Assembly: GCA_910589415.1 (NCBI GenBank)
Contig: OU342634.1
Location: 558,001 to 622,000, forward strand
Length of the DNA stretch: 64,000 bases
Direction of reading: 5' to 3'
Source of the DNA: Malachius bipustulatus
Lineage: Eukaryota > Arthropoda > Insecta > Coleoptera > Melyridae
Below the pieces are notes generated by a model. That model saw nothing but the letters and a program-made list of their open reading frames with translations, had not been told where the DNA came from and searched no databases. A program made the translations under genes and the position numbers. Below are positions 1-63,813 of the stretch, piece after piece (position 1 is the stretch's first letter; every line of letters begins with the position of its first letter).

Positions 1-1535
1 ACGACCAATGGATTAATATATTCGGTTTGAGCCTTTTCGATTACGCCCCATTCTAACATTTCCTGAATTTGCTCATGAATTACTTCCCGATAAGCGTGTG
101 GAACGGGGTATGATTTGCAACAAAATGGAGTTTCATCTTTCATCACTATTTTATGTTCATAATTTTTCATACAGCCGGGTTGTTCCGAGAAAACCTTACT
201 ATGTCTACCAAATACCTTTAATAACTCCATTTTTTCGCTTTCATTTAATGTCTCAGTTTTTTCAACAATTTCTTGTATTTGCTCCATTGTATAATTCTTA
301 GGTTCCGGTTTTATTTCATTTTTAAACTCAGCATAATCAACCCTAACACCATCGTCACGACGAACACAGTCACTATAGGCAAATTCCTGCGATTCATTGT
401 TAAAATTTCCCTTAATCGTTACAGTTTCAGAATTAATTACAATTTGATGTTCTACTATAAAATCGTATCCAAGTATCATATCTCTAATTAAATTCGGCAC
501 CACTAAAAACGACACCGGTGTTATTTGTTTGTCTATCGTCAGATTAAGCTGGACCTGGTGGTTTATTTTCTGGCTCTTACCTCTTACTGCGCCTACCAAA
601 GTAACTCCTGTTGCCGGTAAAAACAATAAACCCTCCTTTGTTTTCTTAATTTTATCTATTAATTCTTTAGAGATACAACTCACTTGAGCACCAGTATCAA
701 TCAACGCATATATTGGGCCTAAACTTTCAATCTTTACCTCTATGGACGGACACTCGGGTACACCTGGCAACGTTTCATGGTCTTCATTCAGGATTTTATC
801 TCCGATTTGGTTAAATACCGTACGAATTTGCACTGTTCGTTCTGGTTCCCTGACATTTACATTTTCCTCGACACTACTAGTACTATAAAACTGCCCTTCA
901 GTTGAACACCTGTTATTTCTGCCTTCATCAATTCCTGCGCTCGCAACCTCAACAGCTACCCCGGTGGTCCCTGCTACTTCCAAATCGACACGCTCGACAA
1001 TATTTACCTCTCGGTTAGAATGATTATTATTTCTGGGAGGAAAATCTCTTACCTGACCTTGAGGTTTTCTATCATTACGCCATGACGCACTATTGTTTTG
1101 ATTATTCCGTGTATTGTTGTAATTCTGAGACGGTTGGGTATTAAAGTTTCTGTTTTGTTCCGGACTCATGTAATAATTTCCCCTGCTCTCATTATTATCA
1201 TTGTCATGATACCTACGACGTTCCTCTCTATCATTCCAATCGTGGCCATTATTCTGCCTGCTTTGATAACGATTTTGATTTTGGTATCTACGCGAACGAC
1301 CTTCCATCTCATCCAACTGTCTCAAATAATTTTCGATCACACAAGGATCGTTCAAACTATTCAATGGTAAACTATTTCTTACATTAGAGGGAAAATGGGC
1401 AATGATTAACGGAATTAGTTCCGCATCTCTCAGAGGATTTCTAAGATACGACGCGTCTCTCATCAATTTTAAAAAATACTCCGATTTGGAAATTTTTTCA
1501 TCATATTCCCCATACTGAACTTTTCTTAGCAGTTC
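1..1535 (-). pseudogene. Ty3/gypsy-type Gag C-terminus, aspartic protease and start of RT (runs off window)
   Basis: On the minus strand the frame stays open from just after the TGA at 1536-1538 to the window edge. It is the same frame as the upstream gag, with codons starting at coordinates divisible by 3. It begins with the rest of the Gag domain. An Asn/Arg/Gln-rich basic stretch follows (about 1050-1350) and no CCHC zinc knuckle is seen. Next comes a retropepsin-like protease whose active-site motif IDTGAQVSC lies at about 680-700. The connector then leads into the beginning of reverse transcriptase, with MLEWGVIEKA and YINPL at about 10-60. Protease plus RT after Gag in one frame, and the tRNA-Lys-type primer site upstream, fit a Ty3/gypsy-like element. 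The rest of RT, RNase H and integrase would lie left of the window. The part shown has no further stop in the stretches checked, so the element may be fairly young. Confidence 0.85.
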
Positions 1536-46396: not shown

Positions 46397-46679
46397 TTAA
46401 CCCTAGAATACTAACCTACGTAAATTTTACGTGTCCGTTCTAGTTTTTCATCCGCCTTAGCAACAGTTTATGGAGTAGGAGGTTGTCAAGCCTGCAGTGC
46501 TCTCCCCACCCCTTCCTTGTTTAAAGGAATAACTTGTTTATTCGTGTTTAGTTTGTTACCTATCTTGATAGAGCCTGGAGTAAACCACTACTTACACGTA
46601 ATATTTACGTGAGATTAGTATTTACGTGTGAAAATTTGTACGTAAATTTAACGTGACATTATTATTTAGTGGTGATAAA

Positions 46680-49336
46680 ATGGCGAAGAATTCTAACAAT
46701 AATTCAGAAATATCTCTAAGGGATAAAGAACTAGACGATATAATTAATGCGAGTGATTTTAGTGATATTGATGAACATGCAGAAGACCGACAAGAATATA
46801 ACCCTTATTATAGTGATGACAGTGTTGATGACAGTGTCGCTGATCGTGATTATGTTCCAGATGAAGTCGATGAAGATCTATATGAAAAACTCCAACAAAC
46901 GTGGCAGTCTAAGAAGAGAGAAGCAGCTGATAAAAAATTGAATCACAATCCAAAACGTCGTCAAATAGAGAGCCCGCAGCCGTCAACATCACGTGCATCG
47001 CTCAATGATGAATTGGCTCACACGCCAGTCGAGGATCATGTAATTGGTTGCAAAATTTTGATAATGTATGGAAAGAATGGTCATGTATGGAATACTTTGC
47101 CTATAAAACCGGCAGATGGAAAAACTTCTGCCAATAATATTGTTTACATTCGACCAGGTCCAACAAATATTGCTAAAGATGCAATAGAGCCTGAAGATGC
47201 GTTCAATTTATTTTTTAGCCAAGAAATTCTCAACGAGGTGTTGTTATATACAAACCAAAAAGTCACACAATTGCGAGATAAATACAAAACCAAAAGTTCT
47301 ACTGTTTCTGACACGACAATGGATGAACTAAAGGCACTGTTGGGTCTTATTTTTCTATCAGCGGCATTGAAGAATAATCATCTTTCAGCCAACATGTTAT
47401 TTGATGTTACATATTCAGGAGATAGATACAGAGCAACAATGAGCAAGGAAAGGTTTAATTTTCTCATAAACTGCTTGCGATTTGACGATTCCGCTACGAG
47501 AGAGGAACGTAAGAGAGATAATACTTTTTCCCCAATTTCTAACATATGGGATATGTTTATTGAGAAGTGCATTGAATGTTACAAGCCTGGTTCTTATGTT
47601 ACCATAGATGAACAGCTCGTAGGTTTTCGCGGCAGATGCCCGTTTCGTATGTATATGCCAAACAAGCCCAATAAGTACGGCATCAAAATTGTTATGTTGT
47701 GTGACGTAGCTACTAAATACGTAATAAATGCCAGTCCCTATCTTGGTAAATCGACAAACACCAATGGTGCTCCATTAGCTAGCCACTTTGTTGAAAATCT
47801 TACTAAACCTTTACAGGGGAGCAACCGAAATATCACGATGGATAACTGGTTCACCAGCATTCCGCTTGCAACGAAATTACTAGGCAATCCTTTCAAAATG
47901 ACTCTAGTTGGCACACTTCGGAAAAATAAAGCGGAAATACCACCTGAGCTAATACTGAATTGTAAATCTCGTCAATGTGGTACATCCATGTTTGTGTTCG
48001 ATGAGAAAATGTCACTAGTATCTTACAAACCGAAGCAGAACAAAATAGTACTTTTATTATCGACAATGCATACTACTGGTGCTCTGAATCCAGAAACCAC
48101 AAAGCCGGAAATAATCCATACATACAACGAAACGAAAGGGACTGTTGACACATTTGATCAAATGGCTCAAAACAAATGTTGCAATAGAAAGACTAGACGG
48201 TGGCCACTCTGCATTTTTTATAACATGATGAACATTGCATCAGTCAATTCGTATGTTATACAGGGTGTTGATTTTCAAAGCGGGCCATAGGGGATTAGCA
48301 TTGCTAAAGTGGTTTTTGAGGATTCCTGCTCGCCGTTTAAACTGACAGAAATGGTTTTGGTATCAAAATGAAGCTAAAATTATTGCGCATAACGCTTGAA
48401 ATCAGAAATTAATTTAATTTCACGTTGTTTTCTAAAATTCTTCAGTAAAAATTCAAGTAATTGTTAATGTTTAATCACAAAATAGCATGCCTTGCCTAAA
48501 CAATAATGACGTTTCTACGTTTTAACAATCCAATAATAAAACTTTATAAGTCAGTAGGTAATAATAAAGTCTGGTTCTATTTAAAAATGGGTTATACAAA
48601 CCAAGAAAGAGTCTTTATGGTGAAAACCTACTACAGTGTAGCCAGTTACAGGAAGGTTCGCGATTTATTATTTGCCGTGAATTTTTTTAATAGACCAATT
48701 TTTATTATTGGATTGTCAAAACGTAGAAACGTCATTATTGTTTAGGCAAGGCATGCTATTTTATGATTAAACATTAACAATTACTTGAATTTTTACTGAA
48801 GAATTTTAGAAAACAACGTGAAATTAAATTAATTTCTGATTTCAAGCGTTATGCGCAATAATTTTAGCTTCATTTTGATACCAAAATCATTTCTGTCAGT
48901 TTAAACGGCGAGCAGGAATCCTCAAAAACCACTTTCGCAATGCTAATCCCCTATGGCCCGTTTTGAAAATCAACACCCTGTATATCATCATAATGTAGCT
49001 CGGAAAGGCACATTGAAACCACTAACAAGACTACAATTTGTGTTAAAACTCCATGAGCAGTTAACAAGACCATGGCAGCTGCATAGGCTTCACACTATCC
49101 CAAGCATCTCACGAAAATTGAAAGATAGTATTTCTCAAGTGTTGCAAATGCAACAAAAGGAGGAAGTCATAGTAAATCATGAACGTCCTCAAGATAAGGG
49201 AAGGAGAACCTACTGCAGTTTATGCCCATCGGTGAAAAAGAGAATGACAACTACATATTGCTATACATGCAATCGTGCTCTGTGTGGTGAACATCAAATC
49301 AAGGCATGTTTGCAGTGTATTCAAAAAATTAATTAG
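46680..49336 (+). pseudogene. piggyBac transposase (DDE_Tnp_1_7), split by an insertion
   Basis: The eukaryotic start is the ATG at 46680 (MAKNSNNN), not the upstream GTG frame. An acidic N-terminus is followed by the catalytic core. Core motifs include DELKALLGLIFLSA, YVTIDEQLVGFRGRCPFR and then NKYGIKIVMLCD (acidic catalytic residues), and NITMDNWFTSIPLA. KGTVDTFDQMAQNKCCNRKTRRWPL follows in two overlapping motifs typical of the family. The frame is cut at 48260 by a TA-flanked element. Coding resumes at 48983 and ends at 49336 with a Cys/His-rich tail (CSLCPSVKKR, then CYTCNRALCGEHQIKAC) characteristic of piggyBac. Removing the insertion and one TA restores the frame. Apart from the insertion I see no stop in the gene. 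Confidence 0.95.
48261..48980. mobile_element. Inverted-repeat element R inside the piggyBac gene, with transposase N-terminal remnant
   Basis: Ends are CAGGGTGTTGATTTTCAAA and its inverse, flanked by TA (48259-48260 and 48981-48982). Long arms of about 275 bases pair across the centre. There a plus-strand ATG at 48587 opens MGYTNQERVFMVKTYYSVAS, the start of a DUF4817-type transposase, which runs into the right arm after about 36 codons. It is an internal-deletion derivative of a mariner-like element. Confidence 0.92.
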
Positions 49337-50133: not shown

Positions 50134-50240
50134 ATATCAGCTGATAATAACAAAATCTAGTCTAAATTAGAAGTACGTAAATTTACGTGTCATTAGTATT
50201 CACGTACTAGCTACGAGCGTTAGTATTCTAGGTTATTATA

Positions 50241-52187
50241 CAGGGTGAGTCAATAGTGAGAGATCGGAACATTGCTATTGAACCGTACAGGGTAAAACAA
50301 AATTTCAAACGCCATCCCAAATCGTTTGTTACTCTGCATATTTCAAAAATATTTTCACTTATACAGGGTAGACCATATTTTGCCTACATGTATCAATTTT
50401 TTTTTTCAAATGGAACCCCCTATATTTTATGACATATTCTTATTCGACTCTGAAATAGCTTTATGTCAATACATATTGTTTGACATTTATGTGCGGCGTT
50501 GACATTTAAAAAAATATTTTCAAAAAAATTAATCGCATGCATGTATTTACTGAAAAGAAGCCTCAGAACTTAGTTTTGGAGTTTTAAGGTTGAAATTTGG
50601 TCTCCACATTGAGAAAGGCCAGGTCTATCATCGCGATATAATAAGACTGCATGAGATCTACTATACAGGTTAGTCACAAATAACTGTCAAATTTTGCTTA
50701 CTTCCGAAGGTCATAACTTCACTTTTTCAAATGGCACACTCGGTATTTTTTCCATAATTAGATCCATCTCTGATCTGACTACATTTTTCATTTGGTATGT
50801 ACTATACCTAAAATGCACAGTTTGAGAGATGTTACACATTTTCCGTTGGTCTGACTGCAGAAGATGCAAATGTCATATAAAACCGGGACTATGAAGAAAA
50901 ATGTGACATTTCTAGTGACATTTATCATCGAACTCAAAGCTCGAGCGAAATTAAATAAAAAATAAAATACAAGATATATGACAATATGTAATTTTCAATT
51001 AAAATAATATCAAATCAAATGTCATATATGTCAAAAAGATGCAAATGTCATATAAAACAGGGTGCTATGAAGAAAAATGTGACATTTTGCTTTAAAGTGA
51101 TATGGAAGAATGTGACATTTTTAGTTTTTACTAGTGTCACTGTCACTGCATGTTTAAATTCCAAGTTCTCGTTAGTTAAATAGAATTTTGGTAAATGGAT
51201 TTACGTTTACAAGAGCAAGTAGGCATGACTTATTGTTTGGGAGAAAGTGAGAGAAATCCTCTCCTTGCGGCAAGAATTTATGTGCAAGTGTGTATTTGAC
51301 AACTTCGTTGCAGTTTATTTTTTAAATCATATTGTATTTCACTTTATTGTTGTTTTCCTCTAAATGGATTTATTCTTTTGGGCAAATGAATAAATTTTTT
51401 GATTTGATTTGATATTACATATTTTAATTTAAAAATATTGTCATATCTTGTAATTTATTTTTTATTTTATTTCGCTCGAGCTTTGAGTTGCTATTACGCT
51501 GCAATGATAAATGTCACTAGAAATGTCACATTTTCTTCATAGCCCATGTTTTATATGACATTTGCATCTTCTGCAGTCAAACCAACGGAAAATGTGTAAT
51601 ATCTCTCAAACTGGGCATTTTAGGTATAGGACATACCACATGAAAAATATAGTCAGATCAGAGGTGGATCTAATTGTGGAAAAAAATACCGAGTGTGCCA
51701 TTTGAAAAAGTGAAGTTATGACCTTCCGAAGTAAGCAAAATTTGACAGTTATTTGTGACTCACCTGTATAGTAGATCTCAGTCTTATTATATCGCGATGA
51801 TAGACCTGGCCTTTCTCAATGTGGAGACCAAATTTCAACCTTAAAACTCCAAAACTAAGTTCTGAGGCTTCTTTTCAGTAAATACATGCATGCGATGAAT
51901 TTTTTTGAAAATATTTTTTTAAATGTCAACGCCGCACCTAAATGTCAAACAATATTTATTGACATAAAGCTATTTCACAGTCGAATAAGAATATGTCATA
52001 AAATATAGGGGGTTCCATTTGAAAAAAAAAATTGTTACATGTAGGCAAAATATGGTCCACCCTGTATAAGTGAAAATATTTTTGAAATATGCAGAGTAAC
52101 AAACGATTTGGGATGGCGTTTGAAATTTTGTTTTACCCTGTACGGTTGACTAGCAATGTTCCGATCTCTCACTATTGACTCACCCTG
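50241..52187. mobile_element. Inverted-repeat element Q with transposase N-terminal remnant
   Basis: Ends are CAGGGTGAGTCAATAGTGAG and its inverse, flanked by TA. Arms of about 700 to 900 bases pair. The centre holds a plus-strand ATG at 51195 opening MDLRLQEQVGMTYCLGESE and then LLAARIYVQ, a DUF4817-like start that stops after 34 codons at 51299. It was inserted right at the end of the piggyBac element. Confidence 0.9.
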
Positions 52188-52189
52188 TA

Positions 52190-52511
52190 TATAGTGATTT
52201 TGTATACTCTTTTTTGATAGTTAGTTTATGCTCAATTTTTTTTTCTAAAGTATTTTTTTTTGATAATCATTACTAATACCTATCACTTGTTAGATCACTT
52301 AAGTTACAAATATTCAGCTTTGTTAATTAACTCATTAGTAAAAAACTAGCTATTGCCCATTTTTATTGTTATTATTGTTATCATCTTGAATAATTGTGCA
52401 ATTGAATAATGCAATTTTGTTAAATAAATTGTTTTAATCTGTGTTGTTCTTATTGTCTCACCCCATCTGGTTACTCTTAATGTGCATTGCCATTCAGTAA
52501 TATATTGCTTA
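52190..52511 (+). repeat. Probable LTR portion of gypsy element 2, left of a Harbinger insertion
   Basis: AT-rich DNA with a run of aataaa-like signals at 52420-52430. After removal of the insertion at 52512-54209 it joins the stretch that ends at the primer site 54319. So it is plausibly U3-R of the 5' LTR. No second LTR is available for proof. Confidence 0.35.
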
Positions 52512-54336: not shown

Positions 54337-55543
54337 TTCTCTATTCTAGAGAGGCATCGTGTGAACCTACTTTTGCTGTATTCAAACTTCAATTTTTTTT
54401 GTGGCAATGTTGCATTTTGAGTGATCGGTATGGGTTGAGATATGAGAGCGACGACAGAAGGCATTATTTTCAGTAACTTAATTTTTTTAAAATAACATTC
54501 ACGTTAAAAAATTTATGTTTTCAACCCTTCTTCGTGGAATCTCTGCATACTTATTGATTGTGAATAAGACACTGGTGTTTTATACAGTAAAATTTTATAA
54601 AACATTGGTGTTTTATTCATAATCAAAAAACATTCACGTTCGCAATAGGGGTAGGTAGGTACTCAGAACTTGAAATTTATATATTTTAGGAAATTAGTAC
54701 CTAGATGATTTGGTGTGTGCTTATCAGTTTTATGTACCTTTTTGATAGTGCTTATCAGTTATTGTCATGCTGCTCTCTTGAATTTGCTTTGAATGATGAA
54801 CATATTTTTACATTTATTTTTATCAAGCAGGAATAAATTATTAAACTTATGTAGGTACCCGGATCAGGATATTTTCAATTTCATGAAATTTAATTTATTT
54901 AATTATGAGCTATTCATTCATTTACTTAAGGAGGGCGATGTTTTGTTGGAGAGAACCATGAACAGTTTGATAATTTAAATAATTTATTTGAAAATCATTG
55001 GAAATTTTGAATTTGGAAGTTAATAAAAACTTTGCAATTTGTTTTTGAATTAAAGCCTCATAGGAGAGAACTCAAAGAAATTTTTTTTTGCCTGTTTAGT
55101 ACGTTAGTATCTTTATTAATTTTTCGTATTTGGAACCTTTAGGTATCCTTGTCGTGAAAGAAACCAGGTAGTGCGCGCTTATTTTTTTTTATGAGTTTGA
55201 GTTAGATTTTTTTTTTGTAATTCAAGTTAGGGTATTATTATTGTGTTTTGCGTGTTTGATAAATATATTCGTGTTGCTTTGGTTAGCCACCATCTGGTAC
55301 TCTCACACGACTTGGTTAGTTAATTAATTTGATTGTGGCACACATTGCATTTTCTTGTTGCTACTAATATTGATTTTTTTTTATTTGTAAATATTTAAAT
55401 ATAATGTTATTATTTTGTGTATATATTTTCGCTTGAATAAAACGGTGCTTAGGAATCATTTTTGATAGATTTGAATATTTATTTTGAATTATTTTTGTCA
55501 GTATTTATATCTGGGTTGTCTGCCGCTCACCGTATATCTATAC
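54337..55543 (+). other. Leader region of gypsy element 2 (left part), non-coding
   Basis: AT-rich DNA without a supported ORF between the primer site and the inserted gag-only element. It continues at 59146-59430 up to the gag ATG. Linking it to the downstream gag is inference from order and strand. Confidence 0.45.
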
Positions 55544-56467
55544 TGTAACGAATTCCGAGGCATTCGTAGTTAATTATTATTTATTTTAATTAATCGAGGG
55601 GTTTTATCAGAAAGATTCAGTTTTTACAGCGGTGATTAGCAGGTTATCTCGCCAGCACCGGCTATATAAGCAGACCCAGCGAACAAGCAAGGCAGAGAGC
55701 TTCCGAGGTATTGACTCGCGAATCATCTCCCTTCTGGTGAACTGAGCCAGGAGGTCCCGAACAGGAGGCATGCATTGAGTGCACTCCGACACGTTTCTCC
55801 AGCCGGTAGCAGTGGGTCAATGAATTGAGTTGCACCTAACTGCAATACGGCAACGGGAGATCGATGAGAGTGAATTGAGCTCCCGTCGACTGCCAGTCAC
55901 AGCAGGGTAACAACCGGGACTGTAGTGAGGTCCCGGGCGGGCCCTTTCAGACGGCGCCTGGCCTGCATTGAGGGCCAGACGTCATAAGCGTCGGGATCGC
56001 AACGTATTGAGTTGTCGACCCTAAGCTATTACTAATATCCACCTCGGCATTCCGTGAGCGGGCTTATGTTTTTCAGATTGAGGTGTCCTTGAATAATATC
56101 TCCCAGAAGTCGCCGCGGCGCGTATACCAGAGGCCGCGGCCGCCGCAAGCACGACACGCAACGGGCGATGGCAGTGGAGCGACTGCCGTAGCGAGTACGA
56201 AGCCGGAGATAGCCCGTCCGGGCGACCAATTGACGGAGAGGCGCGCTCTAACGTCGATATCTCCATCCAATCAAGCAGACCGCCGAGAGAAGAGGCCGGC
56301 CCATATCATTCAGGACGCAGTGCTAATATTCAATCATTACAGATATGTGTAAATATGTTTAATTGTAAATAAATGCTTTTATAATTTAGACTGAATTGTC
56401 ACGGGTAAAAGAGGGCACTTATCCATCCCTGTGTGATCATCTCTACCCAACCGAAAATCCCGTTACA
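55544..56467 (+). repeat. 5' LTR of the gag-only element
   Basis: TATATAAG at 55673-55680 predicts transcription from about 55700-55710. AATAAA at 56368-56373 places the R/U5 border near 56390. The stretch between contains the eight-hairpin array listed separately. The 3' LTR carries the same features 2674 bases downstream. Confidence 0.95.
55701..56021 (+). ncRNA. Array of eight hairpins with common loop GNANTGA
   Basis: Hairpins lie at 55701-55722, 55730-55754, 55764-55787, 55815-55836, 55861-55889, 55914-55936, 55953-55983 and 55993-56021. Heptaloops are GTATTGA, GAACTGA, GCATTGA, GAATTGA, GAATTGA, GTAGTGA, GCATTGA and GTATTGA. The pair closing the loop is T-G in six, G-C in the first and C-G in the last. 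Stems of 6 to 11 pairs differ in every hairpin, for example CCTTCTGG/CCAGGAGG, CCGGGAC/GTCCCGG and CTGGCC/GGCCAG. Several share a single bulge three or four pairs below the loop. The array starts where transcription should begin, so it would form the 5' end of the RNA. The 3' LTR copy is at 58375-58695. Confidence 0.8.
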
Positions 56468-56471
56468 AGAT

Positions 56472-56484
56472 TGGCGCCCAACGT
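56472..56484 (+). promoter_or_regulatory. Primer-binding site of the gag-only element
   Basis: TGGCGCCCAACGT matches the first 13 bases of the tRNA-Lys1,2 site, four bases after the LTR. The match ends there, shorter than at 54319. Confidence 0.8.
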
Positions 56485-56672
56485 AAAATTTAAAACTCTT
56501 CAGTAACAGAACCCAGTACAGTACAGTCACAGGATCAGACAGAAGAAAACAGTAACAGTATCTAGCGGGATGAGTGACAAGATTGACGCCGAATATTCAA
56601 GACAGCAGTAACAGCATACAGCACACGACAGAACTGCAACAGAAACAAACAGGAACAGAACCAGGGCACAAG

Positions 56673-58106
56673 ATGGCCAGCAAAAACGGACAAAACAGAA
56701 TCGCTGAATTGGAAGCCGAGTTAGCACGAATAAAACTGGCTCTCCAGTCAGCAAGGGGACCGGCAGCAGCACCAACGGGGTACCACCAGCCGCCGCAAGT
56801 GGAAATAATCAACCAGGCCCTCGAATGGGGACTGCACTTCGACCACAAGCGAGACGACGCAGTCCTCTTCATCGAACGCCTGGAAGAGTTACGGAACACG
56901 TACAGCTTCCCGAAAAGCGGCATGCTGAAGGCGCTACCAGTGCTCCTAGAAGGAGAAACGCTGCTCTGGTACAGGGTCAACAAGGACGACTGGCAGGACT
57001 GGGACCAGTTCGACAGGAGTTTCAAGCGCGCGTTTCTCCCGTACGAGTACCGATTGGCGCTGGAGGAAGAAATCAGAGCCAGGAAACAGAGGCCCAACGA
57101 GTCGATCAGGGAATACGTAACGGAAATACAGACCCTGATGCGACGGGACGGATCGATGTCACCCAGCCAGGAACTCGAGAGAGTGAAGAGGAATATGCGG
57201 CCGGAGTTCCACATCCACCTCCACCTGCATAAAGTCACATCGGTAGCGCACCTCTTAGATATAGCCTGCGCGTTCGAGTCTCTCGAAAGAGAAAGAACCG
57301 CCGCTATATACTGGCCGTCAACCTCCGCGAGCCCGCCGTCAGCGACGACCCTAAGTCAGCCAGGAACACAGGATCCACAGGGCAGTCCTTGCTACAGAGG
57401 CCAACAACAGAACGATGTGGAACAAAAGCCCACATACGTCGAAGAGGAATTAATGTTTATTCAGTGCTGCTCCGCCGGACCAGCAGAGCAGAACAAGACA
57501 GAAGACAGACCGGAACGGTGCAAAACAGGGGACAGACCAGAACAGGCTGCAAGGCAGCACAAAACAGAGAACAGAACCAGACAGTCAGAACAGAAGAAAC
57601 CAGGAAACAGGCCAGAGCAGGCAAAACAGTGCAGCACGAGGCACCAAACAGAGAGCAGGCCAGAGCAGACTGCGCAGAGCACAGAACAGACGAAACAGAA
57701 AAAAGCAGAAATCACAGCAAAACCGAACAGAATAGACGAGAACATGCCAGAGAAGAACAAGACAGCAGAGATTAACAGGACAGGACAGCACAGCAAGACA
57801 GAGCGAAGAGGAGTAAAACTCCACAGAGCAGAGCAGCAGACCAGAGAAGTACACAATAGGGGCTCAGAACCTCTACTAAGCGAGACAAAAGCGGGACCCG
57901 ATAAACGCTTCGACGAAGGAGGAGCCCTGGGGAAAGGCTGCAGGCACGTCAAGGAGGTGTACAGACAGGACAGTCCCTGGAAACCACAACTCATCACCGG
58001 AAAAGGCGACAGGATATTCCAGGAGCATATCCTCGAGCATTGTCCCGGGCCACCGTCCCGAGCGTCGGCCGGACTGATACGGACTTCGAACACGGGGGTG
58101 TTGTGA
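56673..58106 (+). CDS. Gag protein of the gag-only LTR element
   Basis: The ATG at 56673 (MASKNGQNRIAELEAEL) gives 477 residues. The frame is open further upstream, but only from a GTG, and a 13-codon upstream ORF starts at 56570. Residues 1-25 look like a coiled coil. About 40-190 is a retrotransposon Gag domain (VLFIERLEELRNTYSFP, GETLLWYRVNKDDW, FDRSFKRAFLPYEYRLALE, NESIREYVTEIQTLMRR). From about residue 270 to 430 the tail is low-complexity, rich in Gln, Glu, Lys, Arg and Thr, with recurring RPEQ and KTE motifs. No CCHC zinc knuckle is present. The intact frame beside sub-percent LTR divergence suggests selection or recent insertion. It would assemble particles and package RNA while borrowing an RT. 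Codons are GC-rich compared with neighbours. Confidence 0.9.
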   Translation: MASKNGQNRIAELEAELARIKLALQSARGPAAAPTGYHQPPQVEIINQALEWGLHFDHKRDDAVLFIERLEELRNTYSFPKSGMLKALPVLLEGETLLWYRVNKDDWQDWDQFDRSFKRAFLPYEYRLALEEEIRARKQRPNESIREYVTEIQTLMRRDGSMSPSQELERVKRNMRPEFHIHLHLHKVTSVAHLLDIACAFESLERERTAAIYWPSTSASPPSATTLSQPGTQDPQGSPCYRGQQQNDVEQKPTYVEEELMFIQCCSAGPAEQNKTEDRPERCKTGDRPEQAARQHKTENRTRQSEQKKPGNRPEQAKQCSTRHQTESRPEQTAQSTEQTKQKKAEITAKPNRIDENMPEKNKTAEINRTGQHSKTERRGVKLHRAEQQTREVHNRGSEPLLSETKAGPDKRFDEGGALGKGCRHVKEVYRQDSPWKPQLITGKGDRIFQEHILEHCPGPPSRASAGLIRTSNTGVL

Positions 58107-58217
58107 AAAAAGAAAAATCGACAAAATGGTTTGGAGTACATTTTGTTTATTTGTTTCAGGGTATTTCTTTTATTTTCAGGCGCAGCAATTTTTCTTTTTT
58201 TTCCATTGGGCCGGGGA

Positions 58218-59141
58218 TGTAACGAATTCCGAGGCATTCGTAGTTAATTATTATTTATTTTAATTAATCGATGGGTTTTATCAGAAAGATTCAGTTTTTA
58301 CAGCGGTGATTAGCAGGTTATCTCGCCAGCACCGGCTATATAAGCAGACCCAGCGAACAAGCAAGGCAGAGAGCTTCCGAGGTATTGACTCGCGAATCAT
58401 CTCCCTTCTGGTGAACTGAGCCAGGAGGTCCCGAACAGGAGGCATGCATTGAGTGCACTCCGCCACATTTCTCCAGCCGGTAGCAGTGGGTCAATGAATT
58501 GAGTTGCACCTAACTGCAATACGGCAACGGGAGATCGATGAGAGTGAATTGAGCTCCCGTCGACTGCCAGTCACAGCAGGGTAACAACCGGGACTGTAGT
58601 GAGGTCCCGGGCGGGCCCTTTCAGACGGCGCCTGGCCTGCATTGAGGGCCAGACGTCATAAGCGTCGGGATCGCAACGTATTGAGTTGTCGACCCTAAGC
58701 TATTACTAATATCCACCTCGGCATTCCGTGAGCGGGCTTATGTTTTTCAGATTGAGGTGTCCTTGAATAATATCTCCCAGAAGTCGCCGCGGCGCGTATA
58801 CCAGAGGCCGCGGCCGCCGCAAGCACGACACGCAACGGGCGATGGCAGTGGAGCGACTGCCGTAGCGAGTACGAAGCCGGAGATAGCCCGTCCGGGCGAC
58901 CAATTAACGGAGAGGCGCGCTCTAACGTCGATATCTCCATCCAATCAAGCAGACCGCCGAGAGAAGAGGGCGGCCCATATCATTCAGGACGCAGTGCTAA
59001 TATTCAATCATTACAGATATGTGTAAATATGTTTAATTGTAAATAAATGCTTTTATAATTTAGACTGAATTGTCACGGGTAAAAGGGGGCACTTATCCAT
59101 TCCTGCGTGATCATCTCTACCCAACCGAAAATCCCGTTACA
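58218..59141 (+). repeat. 3' LTR of the gag-only element
   Basis: Same length as the 5' LTR with about eight substitutions, for example gaggggt/gatgggt near the start and gtgtgatc/gcgtgatc near the end. None of the noted changes falls in a hairpin stem of the array. Confidence 0.95.
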
Positions 59142-59430
59142 ATACATATATAGGATTGCGTTTCCATCTATTGCATGTGCTTACCTTGTCGGGAGAAACA
59201 GTTTGTTTGTAGGGAATTCGCATTGGTCTGTCTGCCCAATAGAATTTTTTTGTTACTTTGGTCATTGCTTTACCCACTTTTTGGACAAGTGTAGCTTAAT
59301 TGTTGTGTCACCCTGGTATCATTTTCCTTCCCAGCGATAGCTAGGTCAACTGTTTGGTGTCCTTTCTCTACTCAGTGCCAATTCGTTTTTAAAAATTATA
59401 TTTAGGAATCTGTTATCTTTAATCTTAATC

Positions 59431-61480
59431 ATGCAGGTAAACGATTTGTTAGAAGATGAGCTTACATATGAGATCGTAATTCGTGGTGTTCATGCACCGG
59501 ATACTGTCGATGAGAATAGAAGGTTCTTGAGAGGTTTGCTGTCACAGGAAATGAACAATCGGAGCTTTTCTGAAAGTGAGTCGCTCACTACCGCATTTTC
59601 TTTTGAGGAGGACAAGACAAGGTTTGAGACCTCATTGGTCAAGGTCAAGGAGTTAATTGTTCGGTTTGCTCCTGGGTACAGTTCTAATGAACATCGACGC
59701 ATCAGTTCGCGTCTTTTACATCTTTCGGGGAGACTTCGTCGTATGAAACCCAACTCTGATGAAGAAATCAGTCAACTGCAAAATTTGAAAACTCAGTTAA
59801 TTCTCGCAGAATCAGATCTAATCGAGAAGTTAGACGTGAATAATCCCCCATTGTCTCAGAATCCCCCATTGTCTCAGAATTCCCCATTGTCTCAGAATCC
59901 CCCATTGTCTCAGAACCCTCCATTACCTCAGACCTCTGTGCCTCAAGTGAACCAGGTTGTATCGTCTCCACCACTCACTCCAGTCGCACCTCAGCATCGT
60001 TCCACTGTTGTGTCGAGCCCACAATTACCAGCATCTGTCGGATCTGTGAATCAGGTTGGGGAAGCCACTGTATATGGTCGAGAATTTGTTAAAAAGGTGC
60101 CTGTATTTAAATGGGATATACAGGGTGTCCCATAATATGTGGGCAATCTCCCGGATTTGGGTAAATTTCGTAAAAATAAATGAAAAAATAGCTGTAAAAT
60201 TATTTCCTCAGAGACACCCCTACAAAGATATTAGCTGTTGAAGTTGAGGGTTGAAAATCAATTTTTTGCAATAACTTTTTTATTTCTTGACCGATTTTGA
60301 TAATTTTTGGTGTTATTTTGTATTATTTTGAACTGTTTAGAATAGTGTTTGTTAATTTTTGGTATCACATACATAGACCTCGGGATGGCATAACCCCCTC
60401 ATTCACTTGAAATAAAACAATAAAAATAACAATTTTACAGTTTTTTAAGGTTATTTTCTTTTTATTTGACATTTTTTACATAAAAAATGTATCTTTATTT
60501 ATTTCGATAGAGCGAACCGTTATCGAGATAAACGTCCTTCTAATAGGTGATGCGTCGCAGGAACTTTCTAAATTTCTAGTAAATTTTAACAAGATGGCTG
60601 ACCTATGACAGTAAATTGAGCAGGAAACAAAACAATAACTTAATTAAAACACGTCCAGTGTCAAAATATTTCATTTCATGCAGATTCAATTCTAACTGAT
60701 TTTCTGCGTAGTCAGCGTTTCTGTAACTCATTTTAAAATCAGTTAGAATTGAATCTGCATGAAATAAAATCTTTGACACTATTTGACGTGTATTTAATTA
60801 AGTTATTGTTTTGTTTCCTGCTCAATTTACTGTCAAAGGTCAGCCATCTTGTTAAAATTTACTTGAAATTTAGAAAGTTCCTGCGACGCATCACCTATTA
60901 GAAGGACGTTTATCTCGATAACGGTTCGCTCTATCGAAATAAATAAGGATACATTTTTTATGTAAAAAATGTCAAATAAAAATAAAATTAACCTTAAAAA
61001 ACTGTAAAATTATTATTTTCATTGTTTTCTTTCAAGTGAATGAGGGGGTTATGCCATCCCGAGGTCTATGTATGTGCTACCAAAGATTAAGAAACACTAT
61101 TCTGAACATTTCAAAATAATACAAAATAACACCAAAAATTATCAAAATCGGTCAAGAAATAAAAAAGTTATTGCAAAAAATTGATTTTCAACCCTCAACT
61201 TCAACAGCTAATATCTTTGTAGGGGTGTCTCTGAGGAATTAATTTTATAGCTATTTTTTCATTTATTTTTACGAAATTTACCCAAATCCGGGAGATTGCC
61301 CACATATTATGGGACACCCTGTATAGAAGTTTTCAGGTGACGGTTCTCTTGTCCGATTTATGCAGATGGTCGAGTCCCTGATGCCCTCTCGTGGTTGTAC
61401 TAAGGCTGATCTATTTACTTCTGCCTGCGATTTGTTTGAAGGAATTGCATGGACATGGTGGGATAACGGTAATTTTTATC
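59431..61480 (+). pseudogene. Gag of gypsy element 2, split by palindromic element S
   Basis: The ATG at 59431 opens MQVNDLLEDELTYEIVIRGV. A helical N-terminal region is followed by a tandem peptide repeat (NPPLSQ and variants, five units, 59839-59930) and a Pro/Ser-rich spacer. VPVFKWD at about 60095-60116 starts the Gag core, which is broken by element S at 60121-61321. After S the core resumes in FSGDGSLVRFMQMVESL and CDLFEGIAWTWW (to about 61465). With S and one TA removed the frame is continuous except for a TAG at the junction. Soon after, the sequence jumps into RT, so protease and the N-terminal half of RT have been deleted. Confidence 0.8.
60121..61321. mobile_element. Palindromic element S, 1.2 kb
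   Basis: Ends are CAGGGTGTCCCATAATATG and its inverse, flanked by TA. The two arms, about 585 bases each, pair almost throughout and leave a loop of only about 30 bases near 60725. No coding remnant is seen. Similarity between arms is high but not perfect. Confidence 0.92.
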
Positions 61481-61519: not shown

Positions 61520-62715
61520 GATCAGGAATCCAAGCTTAAAACGGCATTTTCAGTTCGAGGTAAAGGCTTATTTTGTTTCAAACGACTTCCCTTCGGTCTC
61601 AATAACAGTTCCAGTGCCATGTGTCGGTTGATAGATAGTGTTTTAGGACCTGCTCTCGAGCCATTTGTTTTTTATTATTTGGATGACATTATTGTGGCGA
61701 CGAAGGATTTCGAGACGCATCTTCGTGTATTGCGAGATGTTTTTACGATAGGCTGAAAGCGGCAAACCTCACTGTCAACTTTAGAAAATGCAATTTTTGT
61801 CGACCTTTCCTGGACTTTCTCGGTTTCGTGGTTGATGACAAAGGATTGAGGACCAATCCGGAAAAGATTTCCGCCATCGTTAATTTTCCAAGCCCCACTA
61901 CTATCACTCAGATACGTAGGCTCATAGGCATGATTGGGTACTATCGTCGCTTTCTTAAAGACTTTGCTTCCATTGCGCCGCCTATCAACGATCTTCTCAA
62001 GGGTAAAAAGAAAGGTCAACCAGTGATCTGGACTCCTGAGGCTGAAAGGGCTTTCCAGAAAATCAAAATACTCCTGACTAGCGCTCCTATTCTCGCCAGT
62101 CCTGATTTTGCAAAACCATTCACGATTATGTGTGACGCTTCGGATACTGGGGTTGGAGGTATCATTTTTCAGGAGGAGGATGGTCTGGAGCATCCTATCG
62201 CCTTTTTCAGTAAAACATTGAACAAGTATCAGAGGAAGTATTACACCACGGAAAAGGAGCTCCTCGCAGTCCTGCTATCTGTAGAGAAGTTTCGTTGTTA
62301 TGTGGAGGGAACGAAGTTCAAGGTTATTTCAGATCATTCCTCCTTGCAATGGCTTTGGAGCATGAAAGATCCATCACCGCGTTTAGCTAGGTGTCTCCTT
62401 AGGCTTTCTCGATTTAACTTTTCTATTGTTCATCGCAAAGGAGCGGATATTCCTGTTGTGGACGCTTTATCCAGGTCAGGTGTCGATAGTTCTCCTGTCA
62501 CATCTCAGATCTCCGTTTTGGATTTGGCCAAGTTGGTACCGGACAAATGGTACACTGATATGCTATCGAGAGTTCAGGAGGATCCAGACAGGTTTTCCGA
62601 TTTGAAGGTTGAGAAGGGTATTCTCTATAAGCATTTCGTTCCTAAGAGCCTTTCCTCTGAATCAGTCTCGGAGTGGAAAATAGTTGTTCCCACCAAGAAT
62701 CACCCAAAATTTTAA
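61520..62715 (+). pseudogene. Pol of gypsy element 2: RT C-terminal half and RNase H
   Basis: The first frame (61520-61755) reads KTAFSVRGKGLFCFKRLPFG and then FVFYYLDDIIVA, the RT catalytic YLDD box. A frameshift near 61742 moves the frame to 61747-62715: FLGFVVDDKGLRTNPEK and GMIGYYRRFLKDFASIA (RT connection). RNase H follows with IMCDASDTGVGG, YYTTEKELLAVL and VISDHSSLQWLW. ADIPVVDALSR ends the tether. This is Ty3/gypsy order and sequence. The RT N-terminal half and protease are absent, deleted between about 61470 and 61520. A second frameshift at about 62710 separates it from integrase. Confidence 0.92.
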
Positions 62716-63813
62716 AAATGTTTCACGATGACCCAACTGCTGGCCATCTTGGTGTTTTCAAGACCCTTTCTAGGATTACCAACCTGTACTATTGGCCACG
62801 GATGAGGCAATGTGTTCGTTTTCATGTTACCAAATGTAAGGTCTGCTCGAGATGCAAGCCTAGTAATTTGCCCCAGGCTGGACTGATGGAAAAGTATCGG
62901 GAGGTCAAATACCCGTTTCAAATGATTTCGGCTGATTTGTTGGGTCCCTATCCTCGTTCGAATAAGGAAAATCGGTTTGTTTTAGTTGTGTGTGATTGGT
63001 TCACCAAATTTGTTCTTCTGCAACCCTTATCTCATGCAAATCTGCAGCAATCGTCAAATTTATTGAGAACCAAGTCTTCCTCGTTTTTGACGTTCGTCAA
63101 ATTGTGTTGGTGGACAATGGACCACAGTTTATTTCGAGGGAGTTTAGGTCTCTGATGAGGAACTATAATGTTCAGAAGGCCTGGTATACGGCAAAATATC
63201 ACCCGCAGACGAATCCCACAGAGTGAGTTAATAGAACAATCACCACAGCAATTAAGTCATACATCACGGAAGATCACCGAACTTGGGATGAGTCAATATT
63301 TAAGGTAGCACAGGCAATCAGGCTTGCGAAGCATGAGGTTGCGGGATATTCCCCTAGCTTCCTCAATTTTCTCAGAAATGTACCTGTCAATGGTGTTTTT
63401 TACGGCAAAATCACTGATGATGCCAGGAATCCGGTGGACATCTCTGAGGAGGTCGTCAATCCAGAATTTATCCAGAAAGTCCCGGAATTATATCGCAGGG
63501 TGCAGGAACGTCTTCGTCGCTCTTACGAGACCAATAGGGCCAATAGGGGCAGGTATAATTTGCGGAGACGAGATGTTAGTTTTCAGGTCGGCGATCGCGT
63601 GCTCAAGCGCAACTTCCATTTGTCGAAGGCCGCGGATAATTTCAATGCCAAATTGGCACCAAAATTCACCCCCTGTATAATAGACAAGGTTAAATCTCCC
63701 TTAGTCTATGTTGTTAAGATCTTGACGGCAACAAGTTGGGTGACTTTCACATCAAGGATCTGAAACCGGATCCTGCTGAGGATGACTCAGATGGAGATCC
63801 ATTATTGACATGA
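62700..63813 (+). pseudogene. Integrase of gypsy element 2
   Basis: The zinc-binding HH-CC region is present (FHDDPTAGHLGVFKTL, then CKVCSRCK). The core has MISADLLGPYPRS (first Asp), VDNGPQFISREF (second Asp) and YHPQTNPTE (Glu). Frames change near 63040. A TGA at 63224-63226 falls directly after the catalytic Glu, and the same frame then reads on (VNRTITTAIK, then YNLRRRDVSFQVGDRVLKRN) to about 63720. A last frameshift there leads to an acidic C-terminus ending at TGA 63811-63813. The GDRV/LKRN segment is the C-terminal DNA-binding region. Integrase would insert the cDNA. The damage makes this copy inactive. Confidence 0.9.

Follow-up and report, generated by a model that had tools for sequence, protein, structure and literature searches.

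What is a row of short hairpins, all presenting one loop motif on different stems, doing near the start of a retrotransposon transcript? The question is raised by a locus of Malachius bipustulatus, where the window (the whole 64,000-nucleotide stretch of DNA that was analysed) contains an element bounded by two LTRs. The original prediction was that eight consecutive hairpins in this LTR, each with a GNANTGA loop, are maintained by selection on RNA structure, and that they may serve as a multivalent packaging or dimerisation signal read by Gag. The element is laid out as follows.

55544..56467, plus strand: 5' LTR (TGTAAC...GTTACA), a direct repeat of 58218-59141, about 99% identical
55663..55668, plus strand: TATA box (TATATA), with the first stem 38 bases downstream, start to start
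56368..56373, plus strand: AATAAA, the presumed poly(A) signal, downstream of the array
56472..56481, plus strand: primer binding site (TGGCGCCCAA...), adjoining the 5' LTR
56673..58106, plus strand: gag open reading frame with its ATG at 56673, matching Retrotrans_gag (PF03732)
58218..59141, plus strand: 3' LTR, in which the array recurs

The LTRs have TG...CA ends and both are flanked on the outer side by ATAC, the target-site duplication. The Gag matches PF03732 above the cut-off (E 3.3e-11), and the Ty3_capsid profile gives matches below its cut-off in the window Gag (E 0.012) and in four relatives (1e-5 to 8e-5). No pol was found between the LTRs, and by its sequence features the element is a short, gag-only LTR retrotransposon of the Ty3/gypsy type. 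The description of its Gag as lacking a zinc knuckle and having a long charged tail is borne out, as there is no profile match to a CCHC knuckle in the window Gag and 80 of the final 252 residues are charged; a SAP-like N-terminus was not seen in it either. The layout, with the TATA box at 55663, then the array, then AATAAA at 56368, also agrees with the claim that the array lies downstream of the promoter and would stand at both the 5' and the 3' end of the RNA. Specifically, with the start and poly(A) sites placed from the sequence, we infer that the array lies in R, and since it lies wholly in R it would be copied at both RNA ends. Just 3' of the array and still inside R, a branch-point-like TACTAAT followed by TTATGTTTTTCAG (56028-56078) resembles a 3' splice site.

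Other elements surround this one in the window. A piggyBac-type transposase open reading frame of 545 aa lies at 46653-48290 on the plus strand (DDE_Tnp_1_7, E 1.8e-74), and long inverted repeats at 50237-52191, 48253-48988 and 60117-61325, with arms of up to 413 bases that are mostly 93-98% complementary, are probably foldback or MITE-like elements. A hairpin at 54523-54652 (plus strand) gives sub-threshold matches to several miRNA families, the best being mir-4922 (E 0.0013, well below the gathering score). Gypsy-like pieces occur at 3-1466 (minus strand; protease) and at 61828-63155 (plus strand; RNase H and integrase zinc domain), and within the window no cluster of GNANTGA hairpins lies near them.

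The array itself consists of these hairpins.

55701..55722, plus strand: hairpin 1, loop GTATTGA at 55708-55714, G-C closing pair, 3' bulge after 4 bp
55730..55754, plus strand: hairpin 2, loop GAACTGA at 55739-55745, 9 bp
55764..55787, plus strand: hairpin 3, loop GCATTGA at 55772-55778, 3' bulge after 4 bp
55814..55837, plus strand: hairpin 4, loop GAATTGA at 55822-55828, 3' bulge after 4 bp
55863..55887, plus strand: hairpin 5, loop GAATTGA at 55872-55878, 4 bp, one mismatch, further pairs
55914..55936, plus strand: hairpin 6, loop GTAGTGA at 55922-55928, 8 bp
55958..55978, plus strand: hairpin 7, loop GCATTGA at 55965-55971, 7 bp
55996..56019, plus strand: hairpin 8, loop GTATTGA at 56004-56010, C-G closing pair, 3' bulge after 4 bp
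58375..58693, plus strand: hairpins 1-8 again, in the 3' LTR, each displaced by +2674

All eight GNANTGA heptamers of the array (55701-56021) sit between pairing arms, as had been claimed, with at least four contiguous pairs each, and the same eight are present in the 3' LTR; of the other sites in the window 2/119 reach 4 bp, one among the 43 on the plus strand and one among the 76 on the minus strand. The loop-closing pair changes in the way described, being G-C in hairpin 1, T-G in hairpins 2 to 7 and C-G in hairpin 8. That no two stems are alike holds overall, but the inner 4 bp of hairpin 4 (caat/gttg) and hairpin 8 (caac/gttg) differ by a single base. Seven of the eight hairpins appear as 7-base loops in the MFE fold, the exception being hairpin 5, which is shifted to a different register; the centroid structure places its heptaloop on 4 bp, then a 1x1 mismatch, then 5 bp, a register that the genomic copies support. 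The fold z-score is -3.57 on the sense strand, with 0/100 shuffles equally good, versus -1.48 on the antisense strand, with 9/100. Shuffled sequence does not reproduce the array: for the wider pattern GNRNTGA, dinucleotide shuffles average 0.020 hairpins, with 2 the most seen in any of 5000, and fitting MFE loops number 7 in the real array versus at most 1 in 200 shuffles. A covariance-model search of positions 54500-60000 against Rfam matched neither copy of the array at E values up to 5. A likeness to the IRE, whose loop motif is CAGUGN, was considered and rejected, since it is confined to hairpin 6 and loop position 4 is free.

How the array has evolved can be read from its genomic copies. 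A single genome of 544 Mb was searched, the copy search scoring the best 40 of 1254 candidates, and the loci in hand yielded 90 arrays, 70 of them distinct and including both LTRs of some elements, with 12 matches dropped as incomplete, cut or weakly covered. Among the 70 distinct arrays, loop positions 1, 3, 5, 6 and 7, the G, A, T, G and A that were said to stay fixed, are nearly frozen at 0-1 changes per column, and positions 2 and 4 are free (2-8 changes per column). Mean changes per column are 1.49 for stems, 1.52 for the loop columns together and 2.70 elsewhere. The stems change in step on their two sides, as in hairpin 4 (caat/gttg to cgat/gtcg), hairpin 5 (gagt/gctc to gaat/attc and gaat/gttc) and hairpin 7 (ctggcc/ggccag to ccggcc/ggccgg), and in some copies the stem of hairpin 8 is quite different. 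Same-branch double changes on stem pairs number 20 versus 5.3 +/- 2.1 expected under independent evolution (500 simulations on a tree of the array rows, maximum 13), and the end state is a canonical pair in 16 of the 20. Stem cells are paired in 93.6% of cases versus 80.2% in the tree-based null, and there are 15 pair-to-pair double changes versus 0-3 when the 3' partners are slid by 1-3 columns, although the slid controls still give 5-15 double changes of any kind. The predicted covariation is therefore found against the tree-based null and the slid controls but not in an R-scape-like all-pairs G-test with a tree-based null, in which 0 of 66 stem pairs were significant and the 5 significant pairs all lay outside stems. 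We attribute this null result to low power, as the test covers 53,628 pairs at about 2 changes per column, and the structure-directed tests were used instead for that reason. If the loop-closing pair is set aside, G.U occurs in 193 cells and A.C in 158, a difference too small for these cells to tell much about which strand is folded. Nevertheless, with compensatory stem changes beyond the phylogenetic null beside a conserved loop, the claim of selection on RNA structure is upheld: the stems are kept by selection on pairing, not on sequence, the loop is kept by identity, and the RNA structure of the array is secure.

The hairpins are not peculiar to the window. Gag searches of the same genome gave, from the matches listed, a set of families to which we assigned letters, and at least seven more families or subfamilies, the most distant with about 36% Gag identity, have a recognisable array. 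Family a is that of the window, gag-only. Family b (about 64% Gag identity) has a gag-pol frame of 1410 residues with a CCHC match, the fetched part of relative b showing one frame that runs from gag through CCHC and PR into the start of RT; its hairpins are homologous to those of gag-only family a, and the two are 77.6% identical in the array versus 89.9% in U3, meaning that the array is not the better conserved part. Family c (59%, also with a CCHC match) has 11 pattern sites, of which 7 have four inner pairs and 8 appear in the MFE fold; some of the stems are common to b and most are not. Family e (58%) has 3 hairpins, and family f (81%) has 6 in the MFE fold. Family d1 (36%) has 6 hairpins with the loops GAGTTGA, GAGATGA and GCGTTGA, and d3 has 8 with GNANTGA loops on wholly different stems. 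In d4 the loops are AAGTTGA, AAGTTGC, ACGTTGC and ATGTTGC (ANGUUGM); several of its hairpins have 3-bp upper stems and internal loops, and its 8 hairpins rest on the MFE fold, contiguous 4-bp stems being present at 3 of the 11 pattern sites of the piece. In families c, e, d1, d3 and d4 the stems are largely or wholly different from those of the window. Taking one leader from each of eight families, R-N-R-N-T-G-M heptaloops make up 52 of the 73 MFE terminal loops, one of the 52 (window, GAGAGTGA) being an alternative register; shuffles of the eight leaders average 0.07 hairpins or less, with a maximum of 3 and at most 1 fitting MFE loop. In a separate count over eight leaders, several of which are related, four inner pairs close 46 of 65 GNRNTGA sites, versus 0/8 antisense and 3/190 in the rest of the window. 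In general form, 3 to about 10 short hairpins follow one another, each with the heptaloop R-N-R-N-U-G-M (G-N-A-N-U-G-A in the window's family) on an upper stem of mostly 3-9 bp, below which a small bulge or internal loop is common.

The wider survey also bears on the Gag proteins. The link that was drawn to a knuckle-less Gag proved not to be specific, since families b and c carry arrays together with CCHC matches, and loss of the zinc knuckle is thereby excluded as the key. A SAP-like N-terminal stretch is found by Pfam, below cut-off, in relative P0002 and was seen by eye in b, c and d1. One longer relative of the window element (L054, 295-2262, minus strand) has a 655 aa frame with gag and a protease domain, and no zinc-knuckle or RT match, making it a partly reduced element; frames of similar length (640-675 aa) are found repeatedly among the Gag matches listed. 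The Gag tree (17 rows, rooted at the midpoint, with 4 of its 14 inner forks open and a short row for e) contains two array-bearing clades, {a, b, c, e, f} with support of 100/99 and {d1, d3, d4} with 100/100, so that the array is either ancestral to the group or was gained twice. Gags of Diabrotica, Photinus and unnamed source lie on the same side as these two clades, and g, h, i and j lie on the other (81/92). Those database Gag relatives that carry an organism name come from beetles (among them Diabrotica virgifera, Photinus pyralis and Gonioctena quinquepunctata), and no relatives were found in the viral contigs searched. Within the second clade d3 and d4 are sisters (97/93), yet their loops differ, GNANUGA versus ANGUUGM.

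The array has limits in its distribution. Families h (L102) and i (L103), in which the TATA box and primer binding site are in view, have 4-bp stems at 0/16 and 0/10 pattern sites by the contiguous criterion, which is not fully sensitive in that it misses most sites of d4; no other loop shared among their hairpins was noticed by eye. In family j (L104), whose Gag is almost that of i and whose LTR was not recognised, the count is 0/15. As no array is seen in h and i, it is not general to gypsy packaging. Family g (L093, reverse complement, about 620-1050), a Gag relative with a different primer binding site, has ten units after its TATA box in which a GTGTNNGYCC core lies between short complementary arms. 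These units are perhaps the same layout with another loop, a case that is only suggestive because most of them are tandem copies. Pieces left out as uninformative are L075 and L078 (array position outside the piece, or LTR interrupted), L092 (a d1 relative with no recognised LTR), L084 (an LTR without its middle), L080 (only the last hairpin in view), and L094, L095, L097, L098 and L099 (pieces at family g Gags, without sites).

We propose that Gag selects its RNA through the array, which would act as a multivalent site, and we give this reading an even chance. Each loop would be a putative protein-binding site, most likely read by the element's own Gag, and the presence of several sites on each RNA, at both its 5' and 3' ends, would provide the avidity for cooperative, selective capture into particles. 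Gag is the best candidate on two grounds: it is the multivalent RNA-binding protein of such elements, and sister Gag families in one host have different loops. That d3 and d4 differ in loop within one genome speaks more for a reader evolving along with the element than for an unchanging host factor. Within Gag, the candidates for the reading part are the SAP-like N-terminal stretch and the CCHC knuckles found in b and c; family a has neither, so its RNA may need the Gag of relatives, or the capsid part may suffice. The gag-only copies keep the array, and their RNA would be taken by particles of their own or of an autonomous relative. More tentatively, and with somewhat more doubt than belief, we extend the proposal to an address code. 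The Gag of each family would read a family-typed heptaloop (GNANUGA, GNGNUGA or ANGUUGM) repeated in R at both RNA ends, a different loop in a sister family would mean a different packaging specificity, and non-autonomous elements would be carried along by keeping the tag.

The strongest competitor, which we consider unlikely, is that the loops are read by a host RNA-binding protein for nuclear export, stability or localisation, much as happens with the CTE/RTE export elements of simple retroviruses. Unspliced element RNA must exit the nucleus, retroviruses are known to have export structures in R, and a slowly evolving host reader would also fit conservation down to about 36% Gag identity. 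However, such a reader does not sit well with a loop pattern that shifts between the sisters d3 and d4 within one host and is not seen in families h and i. The likeness to CTE/RTE is that of cis-acting structured RNAs in retroelement transcripts, as the accessible text on those elements presents them. The CTE is recognised by NXF1 and read through internal loops, whereas the conserved part here is the terminal heptaloop.

Control of translation in the leader is improbable. Here cap-near structure would block scanning, and synthesis of Gag would rely on internal or regulated initiation, with Gag itself perhaps the repressor. From the end of the TATA box to the start of the first stem is 33 bases, which probably puts the stem near the cap, and the leader of about 980 bases (start assumed at 55693) has 9 upstream ATGs with open reading frames of 2-13 codons. 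Blocking calls for stable stems, however, not for one invariant loop, and upstream mini-ORFs overlapping the loops (ATG-NAN-TGA) were rejected as an explanation since they occur only in hairpins 3 and 4 of the window and in none of the hairpins listed for c, d1, d3 and d4.

A role in reverse transcription, in first-strand transfer within R, or in RNA dimerisation through kissing loops is also quite improbable. The position of the array wholly in R, copied at both ends, suits transfer, but strand transfer requires homology only, not one loop. Dimerisation was one branch of the original prediction, and a 5' palindrome in a hairpin apex has been proposed to drive it in Ty3, according to the accessible part of that report (PMC11381356). 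The heptaloop is not palindromic; like loops clash at position 4 and between G1 and A7, and positions 2 and 4 drift freely, so that homotypic kissing is not what is conserved and this branch is unlikely for like-with-like contacts. Unlike loops with complementary bases at position 4 have a potential for pairing over 4-5 bases.

An element acting as DNA, either a repeated transcription-factor site or a cruciform, is very improbable. A TTGAG-like core is indeed repeated just past the promoter, but the bases flanking it are free yet complementary and undergo compensatory changes, T.G closing pairs are mismatches in DNA, and the antisense fold score falls well short of the sense one; on the covariation and the T.G pairs we take both forms to be largely ruled out. 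Chance or functionless tandem duplication, for which the 50, 50 and 50 base spacings between the loops of hairpins 3 to 6 could be the trace of an old duplication, has next to no probability given the shuffle averages of 0.02 hairpins, stems that differ among hairpins, and frozen loop columns beside changing neighbours.

The proposed Gag-read tag has partial counterparts among known systems. The operators of the RNA phages MS2, Qbeta and PP7 are small hairpins read by coat protein, with short loops and a 5' bulged A. The array hairpins share with them the small size, the fixed loop and the bulge below it, and reading by a shell protein is known for the phages. They differ in having longer loops, a 3' bulge of any base in half of the window's hairpins, and rows of 3 to about 10 hairpins. 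In satellite tobacco necrosis virus 1 (STNV-1), AxxA hairpins have been proposed to bind coat protein, and there too, in the accessible text, several short 5' stem-loops combine a common loop motif with variable stems (PMC6475782). That motif is of 4 bases and comes from SELEX, and the same paper disputes it in vivo (PMC6475782), whereas the loop here is of 7 bases, is backed by evolutionary conservation and stem covariation, and lies in an LTR retrotransposon. Ty3 and Ty1 likewise have structured 5' RNA ends, used in packaging and dimerisation; the packaging sequence of Ty3 is not precisely defined, the dimer site proposed for it is palindromic, and the accessible parts of these reports describe no set of repeated hairpins sharing a loop (PMC4974528, PMC11381356). 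The idea of repeated packaging-type hairpins with a loop motif is therefore already known from STNV-1 and the phage operators, as far as those sources go. For an R-region array in an LTR retrotransposon that combines a conserved loop with covarying stems and switches loop between families, no description was found in the literature searched, judged from titles and abstract openings, which agrees with the earlier statement that none was known for this class.

How LTR retrotransposons choose their own RNA is poorly defined, and here evolution marks a repeated site base by base. Even with a host reader, the array would be a conserved RNA element absent from the Rfam search and from the literature searched. 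Synthetic RNAs of about 25 bases can serve to probe it. If Gag reads the array, it would be a simple, modular packaging tag for gypsy-type elements, would explain the persistence of gag-only elements, and would offer a natural series of loop variants for the co-evolution of a capsid protein with its RNA address. If the address code is also true, these beetle elements would hold a eukaryotic retroelement counterpart of the phage coat-protein operators.
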